Shown here: positions 38,573-53,195 of the stretch, in pieces
Layout: the number at the start of each line of letters is the position of its first letter
How positions within the stretch are numbered: position 1 is the first letter of the stretch
Origin: Saprospiraceae bacterium
GTDB lineage: Bacteria > Bacteroidota > Bacteroidia > Chitinophagales > Saprospiraceae
Length of the DNA stretch: 64,000 nucleotides
NCBI GenBank assembly: GCA_013001595.1
Contig: JABDMH010000093.1
Location: forward strand, 1-64,000
Direction of reading: 5' to 3'
Translations under genes and position numbers: made by a program
Notes under the pieces: model-generated
Databases searched by the model: none
The model's input: only the letters and a program-made list of their open reading frames with translations
What the model was told of the DNA's origin: nothing

Positions 38573-40102
38573 CTATTTTTTAACAGGATTAGGTTGGTTG
38601 AAATACCAAGCAGGAAACGGTCCCTGCTTTGACTTATCAGGATGACGGTGGTAAAATTGCTGGCCCCGATCAGGCAGTAAGTTCATACGCGTGCCACCAG
38701 TCTGTGTCAACATGTCGAACAACAGCTCTTTCATATTGGCGATGGTATCTACATATGCCGCATTGTTGATTAAGTTTTCTTCTTCGAGTGGATCTCCTCG
38801 CATATCATAGAGTTCATCAGTGTCCCATAGACCATGGTACCGAATGAATTTAAAATGGTCATTTCTAACCGCAAAGATCGTGGGTGTTTGTGGATAATTC
38901 CATTCCCAATAGTATTCATATAATAAGGTATTTCTCCATTCGGTGACATTGCCTTGTACAACGGGCCAAAAACTCTCCCCATCCATGAAGTCAGGCACTT
39001 GCACTCCGGCTACCTGGAGTAGGGTCGGCGCAATATCAATATTAGCTACCACAGCCTTGATCTTCTCTCCAGCATCAATCTGGTCAGGATAATGCATCAT
39101 GAGTGGAACTCTGATGGAGGCTTCATATGCTGTGCGTTTATCGATCAAGCCATGATCACCAAACTGAAATCCATTGTCACCCATGTACACCACTAAGGTG
39201 TTTTCAAGCTTGCCATTCTTTTCCAAATATTCAAACGTACGACCTAAATTGTCATCGACAGCAGTCAACGCTTCACAGTACCGCTTATAGTAGGTCGACA
39301 CTTCAAAATCCTCGAGATTATACCCATAATCAGCACCGTGCCTACTATTGCGCTGATCCACCAACCACCTGGGTTTTCCTCGATAATTTTCCCCAGTATT
39401 TGCAAAGGTTTTTGGCGGGACCCAAGTTTCCTGATCATACTTATGCCGATCCTGATCCCTTGGCACAAAATCAGAATGCACCGCCTTATGGCTGATATAG
39501 AGGAAGAAGGGTTTCTGCTTCTCCTTTCGCTCATCTAGCCAGGTGAGGGCATAGTCAGTTATTTCATCCGTGATGTAACCTCTTTGCGGTACTCTTTCCT
39601 GTCCGTTGATATTCCAACCATCATATCTAGTTTGTGGTACCACTCGAGTAGTTCCATGACCATCAGGATAATAGGTGCCCTGACCCCTGAACGCAACCCA
39701 ATGATCAAAGCCACGTTGAGGTTCATCAAGATCACCCATATGCCACTTGCCAATAAAGGCCGTTTCATAGCCTGCCTTCTGTAACAACTGAGGAAAAAAA
39801 GTCAGCTCAACATTCACAGGATTGTAGTTGTTTACCACTCCATGGTTATGTGCATACAATCCGGTTAAAATCGACGCTCGGCTGGGCGAACACAAGGAAG
39901 TGGTAACGAAGGCATTTTCAAAGTGTGCCCCATTTCTGGCCATCTGATCCATGTAGGGTGTTTCCACAAAAGGATGATCCATAAATCCCACGACATCCCA
40001 CCGGTGATCATCGCAGAGAACAAAGATTATGTTGGGCTGATCTTGTGCTTGGATCGATACCATCCATAGCAATACATGAAAAACCAGCAATAGATATCTC
40101 AT
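38573..40102 (-). CDS. Secreted sulfatase, Cys-type (formylglycine)
   Basis: The 509-residue protein begins with a signal peptide (MRYLLLVFHVLLWMVSIQAQ). The sulfatase domain has the metal-site CDDHRWD near 30 and the modification motif CSPSR (Cys71-Arg75), which needs conversion of Cys71 to formylglycine by an anaerobic or FGE-type enzyme not seen here. Further motifs are HNHGVV, GKWHMGDLDEPQRGFDHW and the metal-binding GDNGFQFGDHG. The overall pattern is of S1-type sulfatases on sulfated glycans or sulfated marine polysaccharides. The substrate cannot be told. A haem-binding protein gene lies 56 bases upstream on the same strand. Confidence 0.9.
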   Translation of the reverse strand: MRYLLLVFHVLLWMVSIQAQDQPNIIFVLCDDHRWDVVGFMDHPFVETPYMDQMARNGAHFENAFVTTSLCSPSRASILTGLYAHNHGVVNNYNPVNVELTFFPQLLQKAGYETAFIGKWHMGDLDEPQRGFDHWVAFRGQGTYYPDGHGTTRVVPQTRYDGWNINGQERVPQRGYITDEITDYALTWLDERKEKQKPFFLYISHKAVHSDFVPRDQDRHKYDQETWVPPKTFANTGENYRGKPRWLVDQRNSRHGADYGYNLEDFEVSTYYKRYCEALTAVDDNLGRTFEYLEKNGKLENTLVVYMGDNGFQFGDHGLIDKRTAYEASIRVPLMMHYPDQIDAGEKIKAVVANIDIAPTLLQVAGVQVPDFMDGESFWPVVQGNVTEWRNTLLYEYYWEWNYPQTPTIFAVRNDHFKFIRYHGLWDTDELYDMRGDPLEEENLINNAAYVDTIANMKELLFDMLTQTGGTRMNLLPDRGQQFYHRHPDKSKQGPFPAWYFNQPNPVKK

Positions 40103-40827: not shown

Positions 40828-43197
40828 TTAATGATTAAACGCAACTCGAAGTGCACGCAGCCCCTGAACTCCCTGTAGAGGTTTAATTTCAAGATCTTCT
40901 ACATGATCCTTCAGCAGTCCCTCATTGATTAGGTAGTTCAGATAGCCCAGATACTCCTTTTTCTCCTTCTCTTGTAAATAGGCAATGGATATCGTATCTG
41001 CTTTGCGCAAACGCTCCTTAGAGTCAGCTATCGTCGCTTTGTCAATCCGATTTTTTATGACTTCATATTGAAGGTGGTAAGCCCCATCAATGTCAAAATG
41101 TTTTTCGTCCAATCTAAATTTAATAGACAAACTGCTGCTATAAACGAGGATAAGATAAGACATCGGCAAATGAAGGGGCAACGATTCTTGAACAGATTTT
41201 ATGCGCTCATGTATCTCGATCATACTCTTCAATTGCCACAGCCGGAGGTTGTGCAAATGATGTATGGTAAACTGATCATGTTGCAGGAGTGACTGCCCCA
41301 AATACATGGTGTACTCTACTCCATCGGTTTTGTACTTTTCGAAATAATGTGGAATAATTTGCTGGTTGATAATTTCCTGCTTATCCAGATGGTTTGAGAT
41401 GGTTCTGTTTAGGGCATTTATACTGTCCTGATAGTCTTTACGTGCCTGATAAACTATCTGCAAGTCATGGTCTATTTTGTCCATGTATCCTTGTACCAAC
41501 TCAGCTATGGCAAGGTTTTTCTTACCTAGGTCTTTCAACAGGGGGTGGATTTCTTCGCGTAGCACGTCCGCCACACTTGCTTCAAGACTATTGTTAAATT
41601 CACCCTCGACTGCTTCCAAATATGCCTTCAGTTGGAACAGGTGTTTTTGTAAAATCGGATAGCCAAAATACTGGTGTACACGTTCTAAGACTTCGTATAG
41701 CAGGACAAGGTTTTTCTTCATATCTGTCCTTACAGCTTTGTTCCTGATCTTCGTGGAGTTGATGATATCAATTTGGCCGTAGAAGGGATGAACACCCCTA
41801 AAAATGATAGGCCTCAAGCTGGCCATGTCACCTTTGTTTTCTTTTTCCTCTATAAAATCGAATGCCGTTTCTGTAAATTTCCACAGTACACTGGGATGAA
41901 TATTCGTGTACTGTTCTTGAATTATATTCTGAATTCTATTTTCTACAGATTTCCTACTCTCCTCCAATGCTATATCATAGAGTGGGAGTATTTCTTTCAG
42001 TTTGAGTTTTTTCAAATAATTAAATGCGAATGGTTCTGATGAGGCTAACTCCATCATACCAATGACCTGCTTAACTTGATCTCGCAACGGTACGATCATT
42101 AGACTGCGGTATCCATTGTTTACCAAGGCCTGTTCAATCGGCGTAGGGTTTTCAATCTTTCTCAGGTCAGAAATAATCTCCGTTTTGTTCTGACGACAGG
42201 CCTGTTCATATGGGCTCGTTCTTACCAGACTGCCTACGAACGGATGTTCATCCTTGACTATCGGATAGTTAATCTTATACCGATGAGCCACCGACCTTTC
42301 TGTGGGGTAGTCCAAGGCAGAAATACCGACTTCTACATTCTCCACCTGTAGGTAAATTCTTGTCAGATTTGCAATGGTTCTGGCCGTTTCATTATTGAGA
42401 AGTGCACCGGGAGCCAAAAGAATCCTACGCAGCTGCGACAGTGTCTCGACTTCAGTCACGTCGTTCATGAAGGCAATAAATAAACCCTCGAAATGGAACA
42501 CATTGGGTGAAAAAGTATCTAACCAAAGAGAGACATCTTTCGAATTATTCAATAGATAATTCAACTTCTCAGGACTAATTTTGGGAGGAGTACCCTTCAC
42601 TTTTACCTGCAGATAATCCAACATGGAATTGGTCTTGTAAAACATCTCCTTGTTGGTATCCTCGTACTTAACTCTGAATAAAAAAGGCAAAACGGTTTCT
42701 AGCTTGACCCCATAGTGCTTCTTTAGAATAATGAGACAGGCTCGTATGCTGTAGGGTATCTTGTCAAACTCGCCAAATTGCTGAAATTCAATACTCGAAT
42801 TTGGATCGGAAAGAAGCAATTGCATTGACTCAGTCGTATAAAATGGAGCAATGCCAAAAGGGGCCGAAGCATATCCAATCAGCTTCTTGGATAATACCGC
42901 TGGGAAAATACCACTCAATAGCAAGGTGATGACCTCGCTGTGTTCTGATAAGAAAGTCTGAACATCCTCATATGGATCAAGTAACGAAGGATGTTTGGTC
43001 ACATACTGGCTTATTTCAGATGCGATCAGCCTATTCTGAGGGTGATTTGCCTCTAACTTGGATCGCCAAAACTTAACCAATGGCTCCATGCTTAACCTGG
43101 ACTTGAAAGGAAAATCTTCAAGACCCATGCTTAAACGGGCTTCACCAAGCATCTGCTCAGCTTGCTTTAATACCGGCCATTCCACAATTTTTGCCAT
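40828..43197 (-). CDS. Large GAF-domain-like protein of unknown function
   Basis: The 789-residue protein has no signal peptide and no transmembrane segment, so it is cytosolic. A GAF-like region lies around residues 330-400, marked by VNNGYRSLMIVPLRDQVKQVIGMMELAS, cut here into shorter cues: NGYRSLMIVPLRDQ and VIGMMELAS. The C-terminal half is helical, with a coiled coil near 550-640 (HPLLKDLGKKNLAI). It belongs to a group of long Bacteroidota GAF proteins with no assigned role; histidine kinase and cyclase domains are absent. It is a single gene, on the same strand as and 94 bases downstream of the large phosphoesterase gene. Function is unknown. Confidence 0.65.
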   Translation of the reverse strand: MAKIVEWPVLKQAEQMLGEARLSMGLEDFPFKSRLSMEPLVKFWRSKLEANHPQNRLIASEISQYVTKHPSLLDPYEDVQTFLSEHSEVITLLLSGIFPAVLSKKLIGYASAPFGIAPFYTTESMQLLLSDPNSSIEFQQFGEFDKIPYSIRACLIILKKHYGVKLETVLPFLFRVKYEDTNKEMFYKTNSMLDYLQVKVKGTPPKISPEKLNYLLNNSKDVSLWLDTFSPNVFHFEGLFIAFMNDVTEVETLSQLRRILLAPGALLNNETARTIANLTRIYLQVENVEVGISALDYPTERSVAHRYKINYPIVKDEHPFVGSLVRTSPYEQACRQNKTEIISDLRKIENPTPIEQALVNNGYRSLMIVPLRDQVKQVIGMMELASSEPFAFNYLKKLKLKEILPLYDIALEESRKSVENRIQNIIQEQYTNIHPSVLWKFTETAFDFIEEKENKGDMASLRPIIFRGVHPFYGQIDIINSTKIRNKAVRTDMKKNLVLLYEVLERVHQYFGYPILQKHLFQLKAYLEAVEGEFNNSLEASVADVLREEIHPLLKDLGKKNLAIAELVQGYMDKIDHDLQIVYQARKDYQDSINALNRTISNHLDKQEIINQQIIPHYFEKYKTDGVEYTMYLGQSLLQHDQFTIHHLHNLRLWQLKSMIEIHERIKSVQESLPLHLPMSYLILVYSSSLSIKFRLDEKHFDIDGAYHLQYEVIKNRIDKATIADSKERLRKADTISIAYLQEKEKKEYLGYLNYLINEGLLKDHVEDLEIKPLQGVQGLRALRVAFNH

Positions 43198-43291: not shown

Positions 43292-46200
43292 CTAGAATGC
43301 ATATCCAAGTCCTGCCAAGATACGAGCACCCTCACTGCCATCATGTACACCTAGTCTAAGGACAGCAGAATTCACCAAATTAAACCAGAGAGATCCACCC
43401 ACATTACCATACCACTGATCACTGTCTTCTCCTTCAGCCCAAACTCGACCATAATCTGCACTGAGGGTCATACCTATAGCCATCGGTAGTACATTGTTCT
43501 TTACTCTAAGCAACGGTATCCGAACATCATTGCTGTGAAACAAAGATGCGCCCCCGGTAAATCGCTCTATTCGGTATCCCCGCAAGTTAGATAGTCCACC
43601 AATCGTGGCTCCATGATAAAAGTCAAAATCCCCCCAAATTTGTCGACCACCGAGATGTGTAGCAAATATCACCAATTGCTGTTTGTCCAATGGAATGTAA
43701 AAGGTGAGCTCACCACCGACTTCCCGGAACGAACGATCCTCCACATTCAGGTTTTGCCTCAGCGAAGCACGCGCATGAAATGCCATGCCTCTTCGGGGAT
43801 AGACCAGGTTGTCTTTATTTTCGAGATCATAAGTCACCTGTGCACCTAGGTAAGCTTGGTTGGAAAAGATCTCATCACGTACGTTCAATTCAGAAAGCGA
43901 AATGACTCGGTTTTCTGTCCTTTCAACCTTGAATTGCTCAAAGACTGGTGAAACACCAAGGGCTGCGCCACCCCCAAACCTACGTTCAAAAGCAGGCATC
44001 AACCGAAATAACTTGGTGCGTACGCGATAATATTCATTGCTTTCGACGTTTTGACTGGTGTTACCCAAACCGTAAAAATTTTGAGCAAACCGGGGCGTCT
44101 GAAAATGTATACTAGGTTTGAAATTCCATCGACCGAGTACGTCGACAAAAGTGCCCTTCCAGCTGAAAGAAAATGCACTGGTGATAAAGGCATAATTAAT
44201 GCCAACTTGATGTCGCTGTCCAAAGGGCTTTTTCTTAAAGCTAGGTACCGTGTGATCGATGGCTCCCCCAATAAACAGACCATCATCTGAATAAATAGAC
44301 AAGTATGGTACAGCCAAAGTGAATGGATAATCAAATTCTCTGAAGTGATATTCATTGGCTAAGCGTACATCGGATCGCTTATCCTTTGACTCAGCATTGA
44401 GTTTAAGCTTATTCTTGGTCAGATCGTCATAGATCCAATTGCGTTTAGATGGACCGCCGACCTTACTCTCATCAATGAAGGTATCTTCATCCTGCCCCCC
44501 AACCATTCTGATCTTTGGACCCCGAGTCACTTCACCCACGATTTTGAAGTCGTCCTTACCATCTAGTCCGTATAAAATAATTTCTTGGGTCTCGGTATGG
44601 TCAAATCGACGATCGTAGATCTTCCGTTCCTTTTCCTGATCCTTCGAACGGTAGACCCGTACCCTGGTGAATCTCTCTGACAGTCTCTCCACCAGAAAAT
44701 AATCGGCCTTATTGGTTCCGACCACATCCACCGACTTGGCAAGAAAATGGTAGAGGTCACCAGCCATGTCCATAAGATTATCTCTTCGTGCCTTTAAGGT
44801 CTTGGCAATATCCGAACCTCCCTGATTGTAAATGGTTTCGGGCCAGGTCTGCAAGGCTTGATCTATGACCGAATCTGTCAATCCCTCTTGAATCTTTTCC
44901 ACTTGCCTTTGCCATTCTTCCCAGGTAAGTTCATTGAGAAATCTACGATCAAAATACCTGGTGCCCCACGTCAGCCAGTGCACTTTCTTGGTTCGATCTG
45001 GAAATTCTTGCATCGGACGCAGATTAATGACTGCTCGAGTGGCTAAACTCGTAAAGAAGCCATCAAATTTTGCGAAAGCCTGATCCCGGTCGCGAGGTAT
45101 GGGTCGATAAATGTGGTCATCTCCCTCATCAAATTTGGCCCACCGCCATTGATCATCATGTCGATCCCAATCACTTAGCACCAAATCGAATAATCGAGAT
45201 CGTACCACCCAATCTTTGTCAACGAGATGGTGGTCACTTTTTTGGAGTTGTTGCAATAGATCCAGCGAGCTTATGATGTCGTCTGAGCGTCCAAAACTTT
45301 CTACATCAGATCGATCCCCTGCTGGTCGTTCTTCAAACAGATAGAGGCCTTCTCCATACTCTTGGTTGTAGCCATGTAAATAATCCTGACTTGGCACATA
45401 CACCAATTGAGGATTGGCATGATAGACATCTATAGCATCGGCCATCGGAGGGATGACAAATGCAGCGTATGGATGAGCAGTAGTGAAGAAATCACGCATG
45501 AGATCCACAACAAAGGTGTTGGCAAATGCTTCGGGAAGCAGTTTGTCAACGTTCTTTTGCATGCCCCTCAAGGAGTATTGTCGTCCTTCGGGACCTTCCA
45601 GGCGTAACGATTTTGTCTGCATTCCACCACCTCGCCTTACGGGTACCAAACCACCCTTTTCATATTGTAGGTTCAAAACTGGTACTTTCACCTCTGTGCC
45701 ATAGAGCTCCCTATACCATTTCCCCCAAAACCAATTATAAAACTTGCTTTTGTCTGTCTGTTCTATGGAGTAGATGCTTGTCGTCACGGAATCGCGAGAT
45801 AACTCTGGAATATCCTCTCTGCTTTGGTTAGAGGGCGCTTGCTTTATGACGGTACGATAGCGCTTGTTTTTGTCACCTTGCTGATCGACGGTATAAAAGA
45901 CAAGTTCTAACCTACCGTCTGCATACTGCTCAATGGCAGCAAAGCCTAGTTCTGCTGCACCAAATTTCAAGTTTTTCCCCTTGCCAAATGGAGTACTCTT
46001 TGATCCTGAACCACTGATAATGTATGGATGATCACGCTCAATGTATTGCAGGTTGTGCTCATGACCGGCCACAAAAATCAGGTTCTCAAAGTCTCTCGTC
46101 GCAGCCAGAATTTGCTGTTTGAACTCTTTGAAAGGTTGGTAGCTATTGTCTTGCTTTACGCCAGCATTGGCACGCAACAAAGGATAAAGAGATCCGACAA

Positions 46201-46963
46201 TAGGCAAAGGTAGATACAAACCTTTGATCAGATTTGTAAATGGAAATAGGTGGTCCATGATTGAAAAATAGCCGCCATGATAGCCATAAGTAAAAAGTGG
46301 ATGGTGAAAGGCCACTATGATGTCCTTGTCTCGGTTTTTTTTCAATAGTCCCGTGAAGTCCCTGATCAGCTCTTCCCGAGTATGGACCTCACACTCCGCA
46401 TTTATCTCTGGTTCTTCGTTCCAATCCCTTAGCCACCACTCTGAGTCCAGGATGATTAGCGACAAGCCATCATTTAATTCTATAAGTTCTGGACCTGCAC
46501 AACCATCTCTAGGTAAAAAGACATCATCATCGTCCAAATACTTTTTCACATACTTTTCCTGCCGTTTTAGACCTGCTAGTCCTTGCCGCCAATCATGGTC
46601 GCCCGGTATCACAATCCCTTGACCTTCATAGTCTTCCAGTACTGCAAGCTGTTGCTCAAGTGCAAAAAGCGCATTGGCCCTTTCAGGGTCTTCTTTCCTA
46701 GGCATTCCATCAGGATACATGTTATCTCCCAGGAATATGACTGAGCTCTTTTCGCCAAGTTTCTGAAGATCCACTCGTAGCGCAACTAAGGTAGGGGCTG
46801 GCTTACCTTCCGCTGAGCCACCAGCGTCACCAATCAGAAAAGTAGTATGCAGCGGTGCATCTTTGTTATCTTTATTTATGTTGGGTACACTGAGAGGTTT
46901 AGCTATATAAGGGCTGTAGGATGCACATCCCACCAATAGGATGAACAAAGGGAGCAATCGCAT
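43292..46963 (-). CDS. Lipoprotein phosphoesterase with kinase-like segment and BamA-type barrel
   Basis: The start is set at the ATG giving MRLLPLFILLVGC, a lipoprotein signal; an ATG five codons earlier (46978) is an alternative. The roughly 1,223-residue product has a calcineurin-like phosphoesterase domain (about 40-330), with GDAGG, GDN at 79-81, GDHDW at 121-125, AFHHP at 219-223 and GHEH at 300-303. A middle region (about 430-650) has YSLRGMQK, YLFEERP, DWDRH (598-602) and PIPRDRDQAF (621-630), which looks like an atypical kinase fold. A C-terminal beta-barrel of BamA/TamA type (YPRRGMAFHARASL) ends in GLGYAF. It should sit in the outer membrane. It diverges from the SdiA-regulated-type gene over 63 bases. 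Confidence 0.8.
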   Translation of the reverse strand: MRLLPLFILLVGCASYSPYIAKPLSVPNINKDNKDAPLHTTFLIGDAGGSAEGKPAPTLVALRVDLQKLGEKSSVIFLGDNMYPDGMPRKEDPERANALFALEQQLAVLEDYEGQGIVIPGDHDWRQGLAGLKRQEKYVKKYLDDDDVFLPRDGCAGPELIELNDGLSLIILDSEWWLRDWNEEPEINAECEVHTREELIRDFTGLLKKNRDKDIIVAFHHPLFTYGYHGGYFSIMDHLFPFTNLIKGLYLPLPIVGSLYPLLRANAGVKQDNSYQPFKEFKQQILAATRDFENLIFVAGHEHNLQYIERDHPYIISGSGSKSTPFGKGKNLKFGAAELGFAAIEQYADGRLELVFYTVDQQGDKNKRYRTVIKQAPSNQSREDIPELSRDSVTTSIYSIEQTDKSKFYNWFWGKWYRELYGTEVKVPVLNLQYEKGGLVPVRRGGGMQTKSLRLEGPEGRQYSLRGMQKNVDKLLPEAFANTFVVDLMRDFFTTAHPYAAFVIPPMADAIDVYHANPQLVYVPSQDYLHGYNQEYGEGLYLFEERPAGDRSDVESFGRSDDIISSLDLLQQLQKSDHHLVDKDWVVRSRLFDLVLSDWDRHDDQWRWAKFDEGDDHIYRPIPRDRDQAFAKFDGFFTSLATRAVINLRPMQEFPDRTKKVHWLTWGTRYFDRRFLNELTWEEWQRQVEKIQEGLTDSVIDQALQTWPETIYNQGGSDIAKTLKARRDNLMDMAGDLYHFLAKSVDVVGTNKADYFLVERLSERFTRVRVYRSKDQEKERKIYDRRFDHTETQEIILYGLDGKDDFKIVGEVTRGPKIRMVGGQDEDTFIDESKVGGPSKRNWIYDDLTKNKLKLNAESKDKRSDVRLANEYHFREFDYPFTLAVPYLSIYSDDGLFIGGAIDHTVPSFKKKPFGQRHQVGINYAFITSAFSFSWKGTFVDVLGRWNFKPSIHFQTPRFAQNFYGLGNTSQNVESNEYYRVRTKLFRLMPAFERRFGGGAALGVSPVFEQFKVERTENRVISLSELNVRDEIFSNQAYLGAQVTYDLENKDNLVYPRRGMAFHARASLRQNLNVEDRSFREVGGELTFYIPLDKQQLVIFATHLGGRQIWGDFDFYHGATIGGLSNLRGYRIERFTGGASLFHSNDVRIPLLRVKNNVLPMAIGMTLSADYGRVWAEGEDSDQWYGNVGGSLWFNLVNSAVLRLGVHDGSEGARILAGLGYAF

Positions 46964-47026
46964 CGATGAAAGAAACATTATCCAGAGGAAATTGTGAACA
47001 AAGTAGTTGGTATGGTATCGCACTTT

Positions 47027-47908
47027 ATGAAGATAAACAAATGGTTTTTGTTGGGTATAATAGCCACGGCTTGTCTGTACCCATTACAAAAATATATCAT
47101 CACGGATCATCAAGTTAAGAAAGAGCTGCTAAAACTGGAGCATCTCGAAGTCTCTTCGACTTATGCTGTAAATGAACCTGTAGAAACTTTTCTGCTTGCT
47201 TCGCGGCTGGCCGAAATATCAGGTTTATCTCTAGGCCAGGACGATTCGACTCTCCTGGCGGTACAGGATGAAGAGGGCATCCTATTCACTTTGGATAGGT
47301 CCAATGGCAAAGTAATTGATGAGCTACATTTTGGTGGCGATGAAGATTATGAGGGCGTAGAATTCGTAGGTGACAAGACTTATATACTTACCAGCAAAGG
47401 CGACCTGCGCATCATAAATAGAGATGGTGAGACAAAGGCAAAAAAGATCAAGACCGAACTCAAGAGAGATGACGATGTAGAGGGCCTCGGCCATTTGTCA
47501 GAAAAAAACATGCTACTCCTAGCATGTAAATCTAACCGCGCCGGTAGGAAGAAAAATCGAAATGTCTATGGCTTTTCTCTCTCTGAACAGGTCCTCGATA
47601 CGACACCTTATCTATCACTAGATCCCGATATCATCGCACAGAAATTGAATCGCGAGAAAAAAACGCCCTACTTTAGTCCTTCGGCTATTGCTGTACATCC
47701 AACATCCGGCGAAATCTTTGTCTTGTCTTCAGTAGCTAGATCGATTATCGTGTTTGATAAGCAGGGTAATTTAATCGCTGCTGCAAATTTAGATCGAGGT
47801 GTACATCTCCAACCAGAAGGACTGGCTTTGGATCGAGATGGAACCATGTATATTGCAAATGAGGCCAGAGGTGGAGTAGCTAAGATTTATGTCATTGGTG
47901 CTGGATAA
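47027..47908 (+). CDS. SdiA-regulated-type beta-propeller protein
   Basis: The start is set at the ATG giving MKINKWFLLGIIATACLYP; an upstream GTG at 46994 is possible but would overlap the promoter of the divergent gene. The 293-residue product has one N-terminal transmembrane anchor or signal, then a six-bladed propeller of the SdiA-regulated/phytase-like class. Cues are LAEISGLSLGQDDSTLLAVQDEEG (shown in short as ISGLSLGQDD), DEDYEGVEFVGD, DDDVEGLG and QPEGLALDRDGTMYIANE. It is likely periplasmic. The ligand is unknown. It ends 28 bases before the HD-Pycsar gene on the same strand, so the two may be co-transcribed. Confidence 0.82.
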   Translation: MKINKWFLLGIIATACLYPLQKYIITDHQVKKELLKLEHLEVSSTYAVNEPVETFLLASRLAEISGLSLGQDDSTLLAVQDEEGILFTLDRSNGKVIDELHFGGDEDYEGVEFVGDKTYILTSKGDLRIINRDGETKAKKIKTELKRDDDVEGLGHLSEKNMLLLACKSNRAGRKKNRNVYGFSLSEQVLDTTPYLSLDPDIIAQKLNREKKTPYFSPSAIAVHPTSGEIFVLSSVARSIIVFDKQGNLIAAANLDRGVHLQPEGLALDRDGTMYIANEARGGVAKIYVIGAG

Positions 47909-47936: not shown

Positions 47937-49124
47937 ATGGACGATTTGCTTAAAAAGGCTGAAAAATATGCATTGGCTTATGCCGAAACAGAAATTCCAT
48001 CTGTCCATGTTTTTCATGCCAGTCCACACTTCAGAGAGGCGGTACAAGCAGCCAAAGAGTTGGCAAAGGGATATAACATGACTCCTGAAGAGATCATAGA
48101 TATCCAAATCGCCATGTGGTTTCATGATCTGGGCTTTAGCGGTGGTGGGGAAAACCACGAGGAGCGGTCAATGGAGATTGCTGAAAGTTTCTTGAATAAG
48201 GAGGCAGTAGAAGAAGCTCGCATTGAGAAGGTAAAGCAATACATTGCGGCCACTGATCGCTCGCACAAACCAGATGGCCTCATGGAAGAAATCGTTAATG
48301 ATGCCGACACAGCTCATATTGGCAGCAAGAAATACTTCGATATATTGGGCCTACTCCGGACTGAGTGGGAGTCTCGACTGGGTAAGAAATATGACGAAGA
48401 AGAATGGCTCAAACTCAATATTGAGTTTCTGGAAGAACATCGATTCTATTCTGGACTTGCAAAGACCAAATATGGCAGACGCAAGCGCAAGAATATGCTC
48501 AAGTTGCAAAAAAGATATCAGGAGCTTCTGGACTTCAAGAGGGAGAAAATTGAAGGTGCCGATCCCAACGAGCTTATGAGTGTGCCTAAGAAAGCAGATC
48601 GTGGAGTAGAAACTATGTTTCGGGTGACATTGCGAAACCACAACAACCTTAGTAGAATTGCCGACAACAAGGCTAACATCATGCTAAGTATCAATGCCAT
48701 CATGCTTTCCATTGTCATTTCGAGTCTCACTCCAAAACTTGATTCGAATCCCCGACTCATTATTCCAACCATAATCATCATCATTGTTTGCTTGATCTCA
48801 ATCATACTTGCCACACTCTCTACTAGGCCGAAGATTACCTCAGCAAATTATTCGGACGAGAAGTTCCTATCGAGTCGTTTTAATATCTTGTTCTTTGGAA
48901 ATTTCTATCAGATGCCGTTGGATAAATTTGAATGGGGCATTCAAAATTTAATGAAAAATGAAAAACTGTTGTATAGCTCTCTGAGTAAAGATCTATACTA
49001 CCTGGGTCTGGTCCTAGCGAAGAAATACAGGTATCTATATATTGGATATAATGTGTTTATGTACGGCTTGGTGGTGGCGGCAATCGCTTTCATTATTTCC
49101 TTCTTGCCTGATGGTCCCGTGTGA
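47937..49124 (+). CDS. HD-domain protein fused to Pycsar effector-like transmembrane domain (DUF5706)
   Basis: The 395-residue protein has an HD-type domain at about 1-200: His31 in PHFREAV, His63-Asp64 in MWFHDLGF, His74 in NHEERS and Asp124 in NDADTAHIG, giving the H...HD...D metal set. A linker leads to a DUF5706 domain from about 220 (KADRGVETMFRVTLRNH, then IADNKANIMLSINA). Membrane helices follow at about 247-263, 274-295 and 370-392. This second part is the PycTM effector module of cyclic-pyrimidine defence systems. No cyclase gene is near, so it cannot be called a complete Pycsar system. HD domains hydrolyse phosphodiesters, so it could degrade the signal or act as a self-contained regulator. 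Confidence 0.85.
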   Translation: MDDLLKKAEKYALAYAETEIPSVHVFHASPHFREAVQAAKELAKGYNMTPEEIIDIQIAMWFHDLGFSGGGENHEERSMEIAESFLNKEAVEEARIEKVKQYIAATDRSHKPDGLMEEIVNDADTAHIGSKKYFDILGLLRTEWESRLGKKYDEEEWLKLNIEFLEEHRFYSGLAKTKYGRRKRKNMLKLQKRYQELLDFKREKIEGADPNELMSVPKKADRGVETMFRVTLRNHNNLSRIADNKANIMLSINAIMLSIVISSLTPKLDSNPRLIIPTIIIIIVCLISIILATLSTRPKITSANYSDEKFLSSRFNILFFGNFYQMPLDKFEWGIQNLMKNEKLLYSSLSKDLYYLGLVLAKKYRYLYIGYNVFMYGLVVAAIAFIISFLPDGPV

Positions 49125-49191: not shown

Positions 49192-49797
49192 TTAGGATTT
49201 CTGGAGTGACAGCACCTTAATTAAATGTTCAGCCTCCTCATGCTGTTCTGGCTCTGTGGCAGCGATGTATTCCTTTAAATGTGCAATGGCTTCGTCTTGT
49301 TCGTGCAGACAAATGCAGGTCAATGCCAAATTATAGATGATTTGAGAGAAGGAATCCTCAAGTTGAATGGCAATCTCATAATGGACTTTAGCTAAAGGAA
49401 AATTCCCTGCATCGTAGTACATATTGGCCAGATTATAGTGTGCGGCTGTATGCCTGGGGTCTGCCTTCAACGCTTGGGTCAGCTGGTCTATAGCCATTAC
49501 CGTATCACCCTTTCTTGCCGATATGATGGCTAGGTTGCAAAAGGCATCGGCTACGGAAACACCGCTATCGATAGCTTCGCGATAAAATCTCTCTGCCAGT
49601 TCATCATTCCTACCATCGATTTGAAGGCCTTTTTCAAATGGATCTAGGTGCCTGAGGACGTGCTTGTGCACTGAGGTAGCGGATTCCTCGGCAAAGAGAT
49701 TGAGTTGGTCTGGATTGGTCCCTTTTCGTGCTCTGCGCACTTTTCTAAATCCCGGTTTTCGAGAGGTATCTGCCTTGTACTGAATGACTTTGGCCAT
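49192..49797 (-). CDS. TPR-repeat protein
   Basis: The 201-residue cytosolic protein has about 60 basic N-terminal residues (KPGFRKVRRARKGTNPDQL) and then four tetratricopeptide repeats between about 60 and 190. Cues are AFCNLAIISARKGDTVMAI, AHYNLANMYYDAGNFPLAK and IIYNLALTCICLHEQDEAI. TPRs bind partner proteins; no partner is indicated. It converges with the HD-Pycsar gene, 67 bases away, and precedes the Ku gene on the same strand after a gap of 133 bases. Confidence 0.85.
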   Translation of the reverse strand: MAKVIQYKADTSRKPGFRKVRRARKGTNPDQLNLFAEESATSVHKHVLRHLDPFEKGLQIDGRNDELAERFYREAIDSGVSVADAFCNLAIISARKGDTVMAIDQLTQALKADPRHTAAHYNLANMYYDAGNFPLAKVHYEIAIQLEDSFSQIIYNLALTCICLHEQDEAIAHLKEYIAATEPEQHEEAEHLIKVLSLQKS

Positions 49798-49930: not shown

Positions 49931-50770
49931 TTAGGCAGTTTTCTTATCCTCTTTGCTGTCAGCATCCTTTTTGCCGATGGCCTTCTTGAGGGGTTTCTTC
50001 TGCGTTTTCGCTAGATCAATACTTTCTTGTAGGGCAGTCATGATGTCCACAACTGGAGCCTCTTCATCTGGGGTAGTTACGATCTCTTTACCCTCGATCT
50101 TAGCCTCAATGATCTCCATGACGGCAGCACGATATTTATCTTCAAGCTCTAATTCACTAAAAGGTTTGGCCATAGAGTCTACTAATGTTTGGGCCAGCTT
50201 CAACTGAGCATCATCGGCTTCTACTGGCTCAATATTAGGCACCTGGGAAATCTGTCTGAGTTCTTTAGGGTACCTGAGTTTGTACATCATTAGTCCGGGC
50301 CCCTGTGGAGCAATTAAGACCACACTTTCTCGATCACGAAGTACTACTTTGCCAATGCCGAGTTTATTACTGTTCTTCAGTGTTTCACACAACAAAGCAT
50401 AGGCTTTAGATGCCACTTCACCATCTGGACCAGCAAAGTAAGGCGTATCGAATAAAGCAGGATTGACTTCTTCGGCATCCACAAAGGCCTCAATATCTAT
50501 CACCTTGGTGCTCTTTAATTTAATCTTTTGCAGGTCTTCAGATTCTACGATCACGTATTGATCTGATTCGTGCTCATAACCTTTGACAATATCTGCGGTG
50601 CTTACCGCCTCATTGCAAACCTTACAGACCTTTTGATACCCTATTCGGCCATTATCTTCTTTGTGTAGCTGCCGAAAGCTAATACTACTGCCCGATTCTA
50701 TGGCACTGTACATCCGGATCGGAATGGTGACCAATGAAAATCGTATGTGACCCTTCCAAATAGCTCTCAT
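49931..50770 (-). CDS. ku: Prokaryotic Ku protein
   Basis: The start is set at the ATG giving MRAIWKGHIRFSLVTIPIRM, which is the usual beginning of Ku; 13 upstream codons are poorly coding. The 279-residue product has a full Ku core: beta-barrel ring with QLHKEDNGRIGYQKVC, YEHESDQYVIVESEDL, and the helical region ELELEDKYRAAVMEIIEAK. A lysine-rich C-terminus (KKPLKKAIGKKDADSKEDKK) is of the kind that binds DNA. It forms a dimer that threads onto broken ends and recruits LigD, next upstream on the same strand. The adjacent genes make the NHEJ pathway of this organism. Confidence 0.93.
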   Translation of the reverse strand: MRAIWKGHIRFSLVTIPIRMYSAIESGSSISFRQLHKEDNGRIGYQKVCKVCNEAVSTADIVKGYEHESDQYVIVESEDLQKIKLKSTKVIDIEAFVDAEEVNPALFDTPYFAGPDGEVASKAYALLCETLKNSNKLGIGKVVLRDRESVVLIAPQGPGLMMYKLRYPKELRQISQVPNIEPVEADDAQLKLAQTLVDSMAKPFSELELEDKYRAAVMEIIEAKIEGKEIVTTPDEEAPVVDIMTALQESIDLAKTQKKPLKKAIGKKDADSKEDKKTA

Positions 50771-50876
50771 GTCAACGTATTTTAGTACTTTATAATTTGT
50801 ATCAAACATTATACCAACAATTTAGATTATGATCAAGGGATAGTGTTCACTTGCACTCAACACTAAAATCACATCA

Positions 50877-53195
50877 TCAGAAATCTACAAGCCCCAAGAA
50901 TACTGGCTCACGGTACGTACCATTTTTCGTGATGCTGGCAAATTCGACCTTGCATGCTACGTCTGGTCCCAGCCAAGTTGTAGATGCATCATCTTCTGTC
51001 TTCTCAACGATCGGTTTAGCAATCTCCTCTAGCTTATCTAAGAGCTTACGGATTTCTCTCATTTTCTTACCATCAAATCCCGTCCCTACTTTACCACGAT
51101 AAATCAACCCAGCTTCTTTTTGCTCTGCAATATGTAAGGCGCCAAAAGTTTTTGCTCTTTCATTATTACCTTCTGTATATCCGATGATTTGCACCACTTC
51201 GGTCTGCCTAAACTTGATCTTGAGCCAGTCTGAAGAACGTTTGCCCAATTGATACTTACTACCCTTTCGTTTAGCCATAATGCCTTCCAATTGCATGCCC
51301 TTGGCAGCATCGTACAAAGCCTTTCCGTCTTCCATTGCCTGGCTCATACGATAGTTACTCCCCTTCTTAATGCTGTCATGGCACCAAGTTTGCCTCCGTT
51401 CGAGAGGCTCATTAAGCAGTGATCTGCCATCCAAGTACACGCAGTCGAACAAGTAACAATATGCTGGATTGCTCTTGGTCATTCGCTCTATCTTGGCCGG
51501 TGATGTGCTATGCATGCGGCTGATTATCTTACGAAACTCAGGTTTGCCTTTACTGTCGAGGCAGACAATCTCTCCATCAAAAATACCGTGGGAGACCCTA
51601 AGCGAATTCGAAAGGTCAAGTAATTCTGGAAACCTATCTGATATATCGTTATGGTTTCTACTGAAGATCTTAATACTGCCTTCCTCGACGGCGATGATGG
51701 CTCGAATTCCATCCCACTTTACCTCGTATGAATAATCCTCATAGTTCCTGGGAAGATCTTTGATCTGGTCTGCAAGCATCACCGAGATGGGATCATCCAT
51801 TATGTTCAGCATATCGCGATCAACTCGTTCCAACAACCACTCTTTTTGTTTGGTATTATGCATACGATATTCGCCCTCCAATTGAGGACTAGACAGATGA
51901 AAATAGAACCCATCTTTCTTTTCCTTGGTGATCTGGTATTTCCCGCGGGCATAGATCCACATCATACCTCCACCATATTGGCCCTTAGGTATTTCCCCAT
52001 CAAATTGTAAATACTCCACCGGGTGAGGTTCGGTTTCTACGGCCAGCCGTTTCACTCCAGGTTTATGTGGCAAACCCCTTGGTACCGCCCATGACCGCAA
52101 AGTGCCTTCATGCTCCAGGCGCAAATCATAATGTAGTCGAGAAGCATGGTGTCGATGTACCACAAATGCGTTTCCTTCGGTATGTACAACAGATGGGGCC
52201 GGTTCAGGGGTTTTTGAAAAATCCCGCTTCTTCTGATAGTCTGCCAGCTGAGCTGGAGATTTATAGAACTTCGATTCGGGCAGATGTATGCTTTCTCCAC
52301 TATGAGCGTCTTCGTCGGTATGCAAGGGGACAGAAAAACTACTGAAACCCTCCCATGCGTCCCCTTGGGATCGCACTAAATCAGGTACATTTCTCAAATC
52401 AAATTCGGAAGGGTGCTGCAGAGTCTCTATCCTTTCCCAACTTAGGGGCATGGAAACGGGTCCGCCTGGGTGACCACGTACGCTATAGGGCGCTACGATG
52501 GTCTGTGATCCCCTGTTTCTATAGATGTCTAGGAGTAACTTCCCTTGCCGTGCCTGTTTATTGATCTTTAGGGTACAATCTGAGCGATGTGACTTAATGA
52601 AGTCCGTGGCAAGGATTTTGACTGTTTGAAAAAGCGTATCGTAATCGTATTTGGGCTCAATAGGTACGAAGATGTGTAGACCTTTACCGCCACTGGTCTT
52701 GACAAATGGGTGATATCCAAAATCCGCCAGAAAATTCCTGATTGACATGGCTATTTCAATAATTTCACCAAAGGATTGATCCGGTGCAGGGTCCAGATCA
52801 AAGATGAAAAAGTCGGGACGATCGTGATTAGGTGGTCTATCTTGCCTGATGTGCAGTTCTATGCATGCCAGATTAGCTAACCAGACTAGACTTGCATCCT
52901 CTGTGGCTAAGATGTAGTGCTTCTTTTCCTCTTTGCCCAGGGGTACACTCTCTATCCAGTCTGGGGCCCAGTCCGGTTTATCCTTCTGAAAAAATTGGTG
53001 CGCTGATATTCCATCTGGATACCTGATCAATGAAAGGGGTCTTTGCCGGATGTAGCGCAGTAGCGTTGAGGCCATTTTCAGATAGTACGCTACCAACTCC
53101 GCTTTGATGATTTCAGCGGTGGGAAATAGTACCTTCTCCAAGTTGCTCAACCTGATTTTTCGCTTCCCTACTTGAGCCACTTGATACTTAGCCAT
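50877..53195 (-). CDS. ligD: NHEJ DNA ligase D (POL-PE-LIG order)
   Basis: The 772-residue enzyme has the primase-polymerase domain first (about 1-290): Asp133 and Asp135 in FDLDP, KTSGGKGLHIFVP and RGHPGGPVSMPLSW. The 3'-phosphoesterase domain follows at about 335-455, with FVVHRHHASRLHYDLRLE and RSWAVPRG. The ATP-dependent ligase domain is last, with the nucleotidyl lysine Lys493 in YEVKWDGIRA, FDGEIVCLD and EGIMAKRKGSKY. This POL-PE-LIG order matches Mycobacterium rather than Pseudomonas. It ends 106 bases upstream of the Ku start, on the same strand. It seals and edits double-strand breaks with Ku. Confidence 0.93.
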   Translation of the reverse strand: MAKYQVAQVGKRKIRLSNLEKVLFPTAEIIKAELVAYYLKMASTLLRYIRQRPLSLIRYPDGISAHQFFQKDKPDWAPDWIESVPLGKEEKKHYILATEDASLVWLANLACIELHIRQDRPPNHDRPDFFIFDLDPAPDQSFGEIIEIAMSIRNFLADFGYHPFVKTSGGKGLHIFVPIEPKYDYDTLFQTVKILATDFIKSHRSDCTLKINKQARQGKLLLDIYRNRGSQTIVAPYSVRGHPGGPVSMPLSWERIETLQHPSEFDLRNVPDLVRSQGDAWEGFSSFSVPLHTDEDAHSGESIHLPESKFYKSPAQLADYQKKRDFSKTPEPAPSVVHTEGNAFVVHRHHASRLHYDLRLEHEGTLRSWAVPRGLPHKPGVKRLAVETEPHPVEYLQFDGEIPKGQYGGGMMWIYARGKYQITKEKKDGFYFHLSSPQLEGEYRMHNTKQKEWLLERVDRDMLNIMDDPISVMLADQIKDLPRNYEDYSYEVKWDGIRAIIAVEEGSIKIFSRNHNDISDRFPELLDLSNSLRVSHGIFDGEIVCLDSKGKPEFRKIISRMHSTSPAKIERMTKSNPAYCYLFDCVYLDGRSLLNEPLERRQTWCHDSIKKGSNYRMSQAMEDGKALYDAAKGMQLEGIMAKRKGSKYQLGKRSSDWLKIKFRQTEVVQIIGYTEGNNERAKTFGALHIAEQKEAGLIYRGKVGTGFDGKKMREIRKLLDKLEEIAKPIVEKTEDDASTTWLGPDVACKVEFASITKNGTYREPVFLGLVDF

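Follow-up and report, generated by a model that had tools for sequence, protein, structure and literature searches.

The 64,000-nt stretch of contig JABDMH010000093.1 from a Saprospiraceae bacterium (positions 1 to 64,000, assembly GCA_013001595.1), hereafter referred to as the window, harbors on its reverse strand a gene for a 1223-aa protein (P0001) in which a metallophosphoesterase domain, a kinase-like domain designated here as KIN and an Omp85-type barrel are joined in one chain. On balance, the protein is best read as a predicted phosphotransferase anchored in the outer membrane and facing the periplasm, with a CotH-related domain of the protein-kinase-like (PKL) superfamily and a phosphatase resembling purple acid phosphatases (PAPs) in the same polypeptide. 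This reading draws on computed motif conservation, relatedness of the KIN C-lobe to CotH and HipA, the fold class of the phosphatase, the domain architecture and the gene neighborhood. KIN itself is a candidate for an undescribed CotH-related family of PKL domains, judging from its sequence.

Gene and domain organization

The gene is present in a single copy in its own genome. Its features, all on the reverse strand, are the following:

43292..47023 (−): open reading frame (ORF) with a GTG start; an internal ATG at 46963 gives the 1223-aa protein
46925..46963 (−): start codon, signal peptide and lipobox-like motif LLVGC with lipidated Cys13 (translation, motif position)
45839..46861 (−): metallophosphoesterase domain, approximately residues 35–375 (Pfam Metallophos, AF2 model), with the PAP-type motifs GDAGG, GDNMY, GDHDW, HHP and GHEH
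44729..45757 (−): kinase-like domain KIN, residues ~403–745 (118 relatives; hhalign to CotH and HipA versus controls)
45599..45637 (−): RRGGGMQTKSLRL, candidate glycine-rich loop of KIN (conservation of G445 and G446)
45554..45577 (−): YSLRGMQK, residues 463–470, candidate strand beta-3 with R466 and K470 (conservation)
45323..45343 (−): YLFEERP, residues 541–547, hinge-like, with E544 (conservation)
45146..45172 (−): DWDRHDDQW, residues 598–606, catalytic-loop-like (conservation, CotH alignment)
45074..45103 (−): PIPRDRDQAF, residues 621–630, metal-binding-like (conservation, CotH alignment, 5jd9 sequence)
44384..44728 (−): small beta-rich domain, approximately residues 746–860, between KIN and the barrel (family comparison)
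43295..44356 (−): Omp85-type barrel, residues ~870–1223 (Pfam Omp85)

The four motifs from YSLRGMQK to PIPRDRDQAF had been quoted in a preliminary description of the window and are all found at the places given there. The segment assigned to them, residues 430–650, does exist but was drawn too short, as the domain occupies residues ~403–745 and is followed by the beta-rich domain up to about residue 860. The phosphoesterase and the barrel said to flank it were recovered as well: Omp85 (PF01103) matches residues 945–1200 (E 4.8e-12, 46.5 bits, cut-off 24), NCBIfam Omp85_fam gives E 3.7e-13 with 49.7 bits, which is under its cut-off of 200, and Metallophos gives E 2.5e-07 with the phosphatase domain scanned by itself and no match at E up to 10 when the whole protein is scanned. 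No POTRA model matches P0001 at E up to 10, and the space ahead of the barrel is occupied by KIN and the beta-rich domain instead. The latter is also present in nine short KIN proteins and is absent from three KIN-only proteins and four KIN remnants. Back-translated, DWDRHDDQW matches the window at one place and none of 100 shuffles.

Conservation of the KIN motifs

Conservation was counted over 118 KIN relatives, with L156 and L157 excluded as repeats and with five strongly degenerate or remnant loci lying outside the count, namely L186, L187, L188 and L190 (remnants, below 140 bits) and L189 (no match). In the N-terminal part, G445 and G446 are kept in 106 and 109 of the 118 sequences, R466 and K470 in 110 and 111, E544 in 114 and D593 in 116. 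The catalytic-loop-like motif keeps D598 in 116, D600 in 101, H602 in 107 and Q/N605 in 115 sequences, the metal-binding-like motif keeps D625 in 113 and D627 in 111, and G635 is invariant (118/118). The conservation of DWDRH and RDRD in homologues, proposed earlier as a check on the kinase-like assignment, is therefore high. K470, D598, H602, D625 and D627 occur all together in 106 sequences, the window protein included, and 12 miss one or more of them.

D600 aligns with the catalytic Asp of CotH, and D625 and D627 align with both Asp residues of CotH PWDYD. The aligned Asp in the 5jd9 chain is presumably D228, judging from the spacing and from its partner D251. The substitution D228Q abolishes CotH activity (PMC7821199). 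KIN would transfer phosphate to an envelope substrate, with K470 as the donor-binding residue, either D600 or D598 as the putative base and D625/D627 as metal ligands.

On a tree of 114 sequences, losses of the N-lobe motifs amount to five changes and those of the C-lobe motifs to six. The losses coincide in four of five independent pairs and are never opposed (p 0.125), which fits residues serving one active site and is non-significant by itself; a seemingly strong joint loss (Fisher p 7e-08) shrinks to just these four of five pairs and was discarded. Several KIN-barrel proteins (L191, L192, L194–L197 and L203) have degenerate kinase motifs and are likely pseudokinases, and at L186–L188 and L190 mere remnants of KIN stand ahead of the barrel.

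Comparison of KIN with CotH, HipA and other kinases

Neither Pfam nor NCBIfam has a model that matches the KIN segment of the window protein, and CotH (PF08757, cut-off 23.8 bits) gives no match to it at E up to 10; the Pfam CotH model matches one of 40 relatives (E 7.1e-04), with the other 39 not below 0.001, and a CotH search of the window's own genome gave no matches at 1e-10. With a local CotH model made of 30 Bacteroidota CotH proteins, 4 of 71 relatives came over the inclusion threshold, the best being L027 (E 9.9e-07), in whose alignment GDWD lies beneath GNWD and PRDRD beneath PyDyD, with the motifs in register.

In the profile comparison with hhalign, KIN and CotH align with a score of 44.9 (P 9.5e-05; 53.2 in the reverse direction) over 154 columns, which span the catalytic loop, the metal motif and the C-terminal helices and extend for about 100 positions past the motifs. 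The KIN–HipA scores are 31.2 forward and 25.7 reverse. The maximum over 200 column-permuted KIN profiles was 27.0 against CotH and 26.5 against HipA, the reversed KIN profile scored 19.4 and 19.2, respectively, and decoys of other folds (PfkB, sulfatase, phosphatase, barrel) gave no more than 23.2 in either direction. For scale, the true PKL pairs CotH–HipA and Pkinase–APH score 39.5/40.8 and 80.9/93.9.

The kinase-like nature claimed in the preliminary description is thus supported by the sequence, with the CotH/HipA C-lobe collinear with the motifs and scoring above the controls, but not for the N-lobe, which could not be aligned significantly. The C-lobe match, modest as it is, supports the placement of KIN with CotH and HipA within the PKL superfamily, and KIN very probably has the PKL fold. 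With the CotH kinases (PF08757; spore coat protein H, 5jd9/5jda) it shares the catalytic-loop Asp, the P-x-D-x-D register and the collinear C-terminal helices, and it differs from them in its unalignable N-lobe and its fusion to a phosphatase and a barrel. HipA (PF07804), a cytoplasmic protein, has an N-x-D-x-H-x-K-N catalytic loop resembling the D-x-H of KIN, but this match is weaker than that to CotH. The KIN profile gave just two chance-level matches among PDB sequences (E 0.12 and 0.29), and a scan of viral contigs for relatives yielded no usable one among 48 pattern matches.

The phosphatase domain

The AlphaFold model of residues 14–375 was built with 25 Poribacteria relatives and has a mean predicted local distance difference test (pLDDT) value of 71.7. 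Its best Foldseek matches are human, pig and rat purple acid phosphatases (E 2.0e-12 to 3.3e-12), with template modeling scores of 0.52–0.66 and root-mean-square deviations of 6–8 Å against PAPs such as 1war and 1ute. The window protein retains D46, D80, N81, H123, H220, H301 and H303, with Asp122 replacing the usual Asn. By its modeled fold and metal-ligand motifs the domain is PAP-like (ACP5 type): it shares the GDxG, GDNxY, HH and GHxH motifs with ACP5-type PAPs and differs from them in motif III, which reads GDHD versus GNHD, and in its fusion to KIN and the barrel. In the proposed mechanism it would act on the same phosphoester as KIN or on a downstream one.

Of 80 relatives scored, 24 have a degenerate active site. 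The eight proteins lacking D600 in this comparison all have a degenerate phosphatase centre (Fisher p 2.5e-05), but the claim of coupled decay was withdrawn: a single D600 change suffices on the tree, and the p-value reflects pseudoreplication.

Topology and comparison with other Omp85 proteins

In the window protein Cys13 is followed by ASYSPY, and in the 33 of 88 proteins that have a lipobox recognisable by a strict pattern, their start codons being uncertain, the six residues after the Cys include 0.09 acidic ones on average. In Bacteroidota, the export signal of surface lipoproteins consists of acidic residues after the lipidated Cys, and in BamA the N-terminal part of the Omp85 protein is kept in the periplasm. 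The lack of the acidic signal and the BamA rule for Omp85 N-terminal domains together make the periplasmic face likelier, so that the surface location suggested in the preliminary description is not upheld: both the phosphatase and KIN probably face the periplasm, where the N-terminal lipid and the C-terminal barrel would hold KIN at the outer membrane.

Two subfamilies of the Omp85 superfamily described in the main text of a survey (PMC4104836) come close to this layout. The PlpD (type Vd) subfamily has an enzyme ahead of the Omp85 barrel, as the window protein does, and is marked by a POTRA domain linking passenger and barrel, for which the window protein has no match, and Omp85-Lipo likewise carries a lipid anchor on its barrel. 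None of the words metallophosph-, phosphatase or phosphoesterase occurs in that main text.

Distribution and architectures of the family

With the KIN alignment, matches were obtained in 115 genomes of a phylum-wide sample of 296, and 82 of 198 related genomes match part or all of the window protein. Among 133 ORFs with a domain match at the loci covered, the phosphatase-KIN-beta-barrel layout is found in 90, two of which are repeats of the same genes, leaving 88 distinct ORFs, some of them cut by contig ends. The others comprise 18 KIN-beta-barrel, 9 KIN-beta, 3 KIN-only, 4 KIN remnant-barrel, 7 phosphatase-only and 2 barrel-only ORFs; KIN is thus without a barrel in 12 ORFs and is N-terminal to the barrel in all 112 having both. 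The combination, which had been called unusual, is not rare, and the phosphatase-KIN-barrel architecture is ordinary within Bacteroidota.

Phosphatase-only relatives occur in Poribacteria at 25 loci, where no KIN was detected in nearby ORFs (best E 0.15). In two genomes of one genus (L184 and L185), a KIN lipoprotein gene is directly followed by a phosphatase lipoprotein gene. L198:2129-7148 holds three and L205:2436-5775 two closely spaced KIN-beta genes, with neither barrel nor phosphatase, representing a family expansion. Five plasmid records contain relatives, the product being "hypothetical protein" in four and unannotated in one.

Searches of the open-access literature on Omp85 with phosphoesterase in Bacteroidetes, the CotH/Fam20/HipA families, CotH–VTC and SdiA-regulated proteins with PPK turned up no account of this protein. 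An earlier description in the KINtaro list or in a 2021 paper on a Riemerella metallophosphoesterase is possible.

Gene neighborhood

The gene is surrounded by the following genes:

40828..43197 (−): GAF-domain protein, downstream neighbor (family match 6.4e-207; Pfam GAF_2 4.2e-05, weak and under the cut-off)
46994..47908 (+): SdiA-regulated family protein, divergent neighbor (Pfam 6.8e-18; family match 3.8e-76)
47937..49124 (+): PycTM protein with an HD-type N-terminal part (Pfam PycTM 1.3e-30; family match 4.2e-142), the HD model matching only its relatives L305 and L345

The window thus has the GAF, KIN, SdiA-regulated and HD/PycTM genes together. At 15 of 61 flanked loci an HD/PycTM gene is found close to the family gene, and at 11 an SdiA-regulated one. 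A second set included 60 further loci, one per genome, from KIN-positive genomes of 19 families (mostly 12 kb, with families f25 and f40 over-represented), and 158 loci chosen for CotH, HipA, APH, Pkinase, PfkB and sulfatase served as controls, these being shorter (~3.7 kb each; 592 kb in total vs 708 kb). Models made from the first 61 loci detected HD/PycTM in 39 and SdiA-regulated genes in 26 of the 60 loci, with one of the 158 controls each.

When the family models were made from these same 60 loci, HD/PycTM genes were found in 39 loci of 14 families (controls 1/158), this model also catching PycTM-only proteins such as that of L315, and SdiA-regulated genes in 24 loci of 12 families (controls 1/158). 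With no control matches at all (0/158 each), there follow GAF (17 loci, 5 families), a class-III cyclase with tetratricopeptide repeats (TPRs; 16 loci, 3 families, the model also catching the TPR gene at 49195-49797 of the window, 2.9e-10), PPK1 (13 loci, 8 families), SixA (9 loci, 5 families), PAP2 (6 loci, 4 families), an OprO/P porin (3 loci, 1 family) and Ppx/GppA (3 loci, 2 families). CotH was found in 3 loci of one family and in 17 of the 158 controls, these including loci chosen for CotH. The conserved neighborhood with HD/PycTM, SdiA-regulated, GAF, PPK1 and SixA genes is new here. In L345:987-11497 and L353:294-10549, genes for PAP2, CotH, porin O/P, an SdiA-regulated protein, a KIN-barrel protein, PPK1, SixA and HD/PycTM stand in one run.

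From this neighborhood we tentatively suggest, leaning to doubt, that the protein is functionally linked with the metabolism of phosphate or polyphosphate; the system would then take part in phosphate/polyphosphate homeostasis with its HD/PycTM, SdiA-regulated, GAF, PPK1 and SixA neighbors. Polyphosphate as the phosphate donor is speculative.

The protein encoded at 47937-49124 of the window carries its PycTM domain, which Pfam and PADLOC class as a Pycsar effector family, at the C-terminus; the regular occurrence of this protein next to KIN genes suggests that it serves in housekeeping rather than defence. In L315:8277-10954 and similar f40 loci, a class-III cyclase with TPRs and then a PycTM-only gene adjoin the KIN gene, and this type of cyclase has a weak PADLOC PycC match (3.8e-05), which makes the two genes a recurrently placed Pycsar-like pair. 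One control CotH gene (L120:3229-3969) is adjoined by an SdiA-regulated gene, the same neighbor family as that of KIN. A link between CotH and a polyphosphate polymerase (VTC) was unsupported, as the VTC model matched 0 of 10 and 0 of 3 CotH-neighbor proteins.

Alternative explanations and significance

A number of results count against a CotH-related, catalytically active KIN paired with a phosphatase. The window protein itself was missed by the local CotH model (E 1.9), and the HipA model brought 0 of 71 relatives over the threshold (best 0.075). The hhalign probabilities are 59% for CotH and 11% for HipA, were 29% and 25% when the first 71 sequences were used, and fell to 8.6% (score 34.1) in a run with smaller alignments (A1–A2); the reverse KIN–HipA score of 25.7 is below the permuted maximum of 26.5. 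Forced global alignment gave no trustworthy N-lobe match, the C-lobe alone aligning, and single-sequence AlphaFold prediction of the KIN segment reached a pLDDT of 33.3 and a predicted template modeling score of 0.20. KIN–APH (21.7) and KIN–Pkinase (15.9) are at the decoy level, but this is no argument either way because the true pairs CotH–APH (16.9) and CotH–Pkinase (16.1) are likewise at noise level. Of the 118 relatives, 17 lack D600, the CotH-equivalent base, and two lack D598, and at least six changes led to broken C-lobe motifs, some of them affecting a single residue. At least nine changes of state of the phosphatase centre fall on the tree, against one of KIN D600, which makes KIN the more constant part and, since the two active sites change unequally, indicates that the kinase-phosphatase pair is not obligatory; in the stretch read, a phosphatase gene adjoins only 2 of 34 KIN ORFs lacking a fused phosphatase. 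As for polyphosphate, 47 of the 60 loci are without PPK1, and the PPK1 of the window's own genome is unlinked, lying on contig C156 with no SixA or HD/PycTM gene in the surrounding 11.5 kb that were read. The periplasm, moreover, is normally without available ATP.

The modest hhalign probabilities, the alignment restricted to the C-lobe and the failure of the CotH model on the window protein would all be expected if the motifs were convergent on an unrelated fold and the profile match were a chance product of Asp/Trp-rich columns. We consider this quite improbable in view of the permutation, reversal and decoy controls, the ~100 aligned positions past the motifs and the HMM (hidden Markov model) matches of some relatives. 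The absence of ATP from the periplasm would be of no consequence if KIN were a pseudokinase or scaffold, a periplasmic adaptor replacing POTRA and without catalysis; its place ahead of the barrel, the POTRA position, in the 112 ORFs having both and the degenerate motifs in some lineages (e.g., L191, L192, L194 and L197) agree with such a role. Nevertheless, 106 of 118 relatives keep K470, D598, H602, D625 and D627 together and KIN occurs barrel-free in 12 of 133 ORFs, so a purely structural KIN appears unlikely. A catalytic role is somewhat better favored, KIN being a putative active phosphotransferase.

An equally unlikely arrangement is that of a type Vd-like autotransporter, whose barrel would export the phosphatase and KIN to the surface like the patatin of PlpD. 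The order enzyme-linker-Omp85 barrel is shared with that precedent (PMC4104836, PMC11116518), but the window protein has an N-terminal lipobox, no acidic export signal and no POTRA match, and a lipid-anchored N-terminus would presumably resist passage. The most serious competitor, although still the less probable one, accepts the PKL fold and denies the protein substrate: KIN would phosphorylate a lipid, a glycan or a small envelope molecule, or transfer AMP. The FAM20/CotH group also clusters with kinases whose presumed substrates are phosphatidylinositol or other lipids (PMC9758233), AMPylators and glutamylators are counted among PKL proteins (PMC10870513), and a PAP-type phosphatase in the same chain would suit a small phosphoester. 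On the other hand, of the four PKL families compared, the highest score is that of CotH, which is a protein kinase.

If KIN is catalytic, a large part of the phylum (115 of 296 genomes) has an unrecognised family of outer-membrane kinases coupled to a phosphatase and often located beside phosphohydrolase and polyphosphate genes, and experiments could then ask which enzyme adds phosphate to envelope proteins or glycans beyond the Gram-negative cytoplasm, and from which donor. A more far-reaching version, improbable at present, is a write-and-erase phosphorylation cycle at the Bacteroidota outer membrane, in which a CotH-class kinase and a PAP, joined in one barrel-anchored protein on the periplasmic side and served by the conserved cluster of polyphosphate kinase, SixA and HD/PycTM genes, would work with polyphosphate, or a donor derived from it, in place of ATP; such a donor would solve how a kinase works outside the cytoplasm. 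The family also adds a candidate to the kinase-like superfamily and a possible function for proteins labelled hypothetical.

Other genes in the window

A sulfatase gene is located at 38573-40102 (−), and the genome has at least 43 sulfatase matches at E < 1e-15 (43 scored of 142 candidates), as in polysaccharide degraders. In the region 49931-53195 (−), the sequence of the ORF at 49931-50809 resembles Ku, and the ORF after it may be a DNA ligase D.

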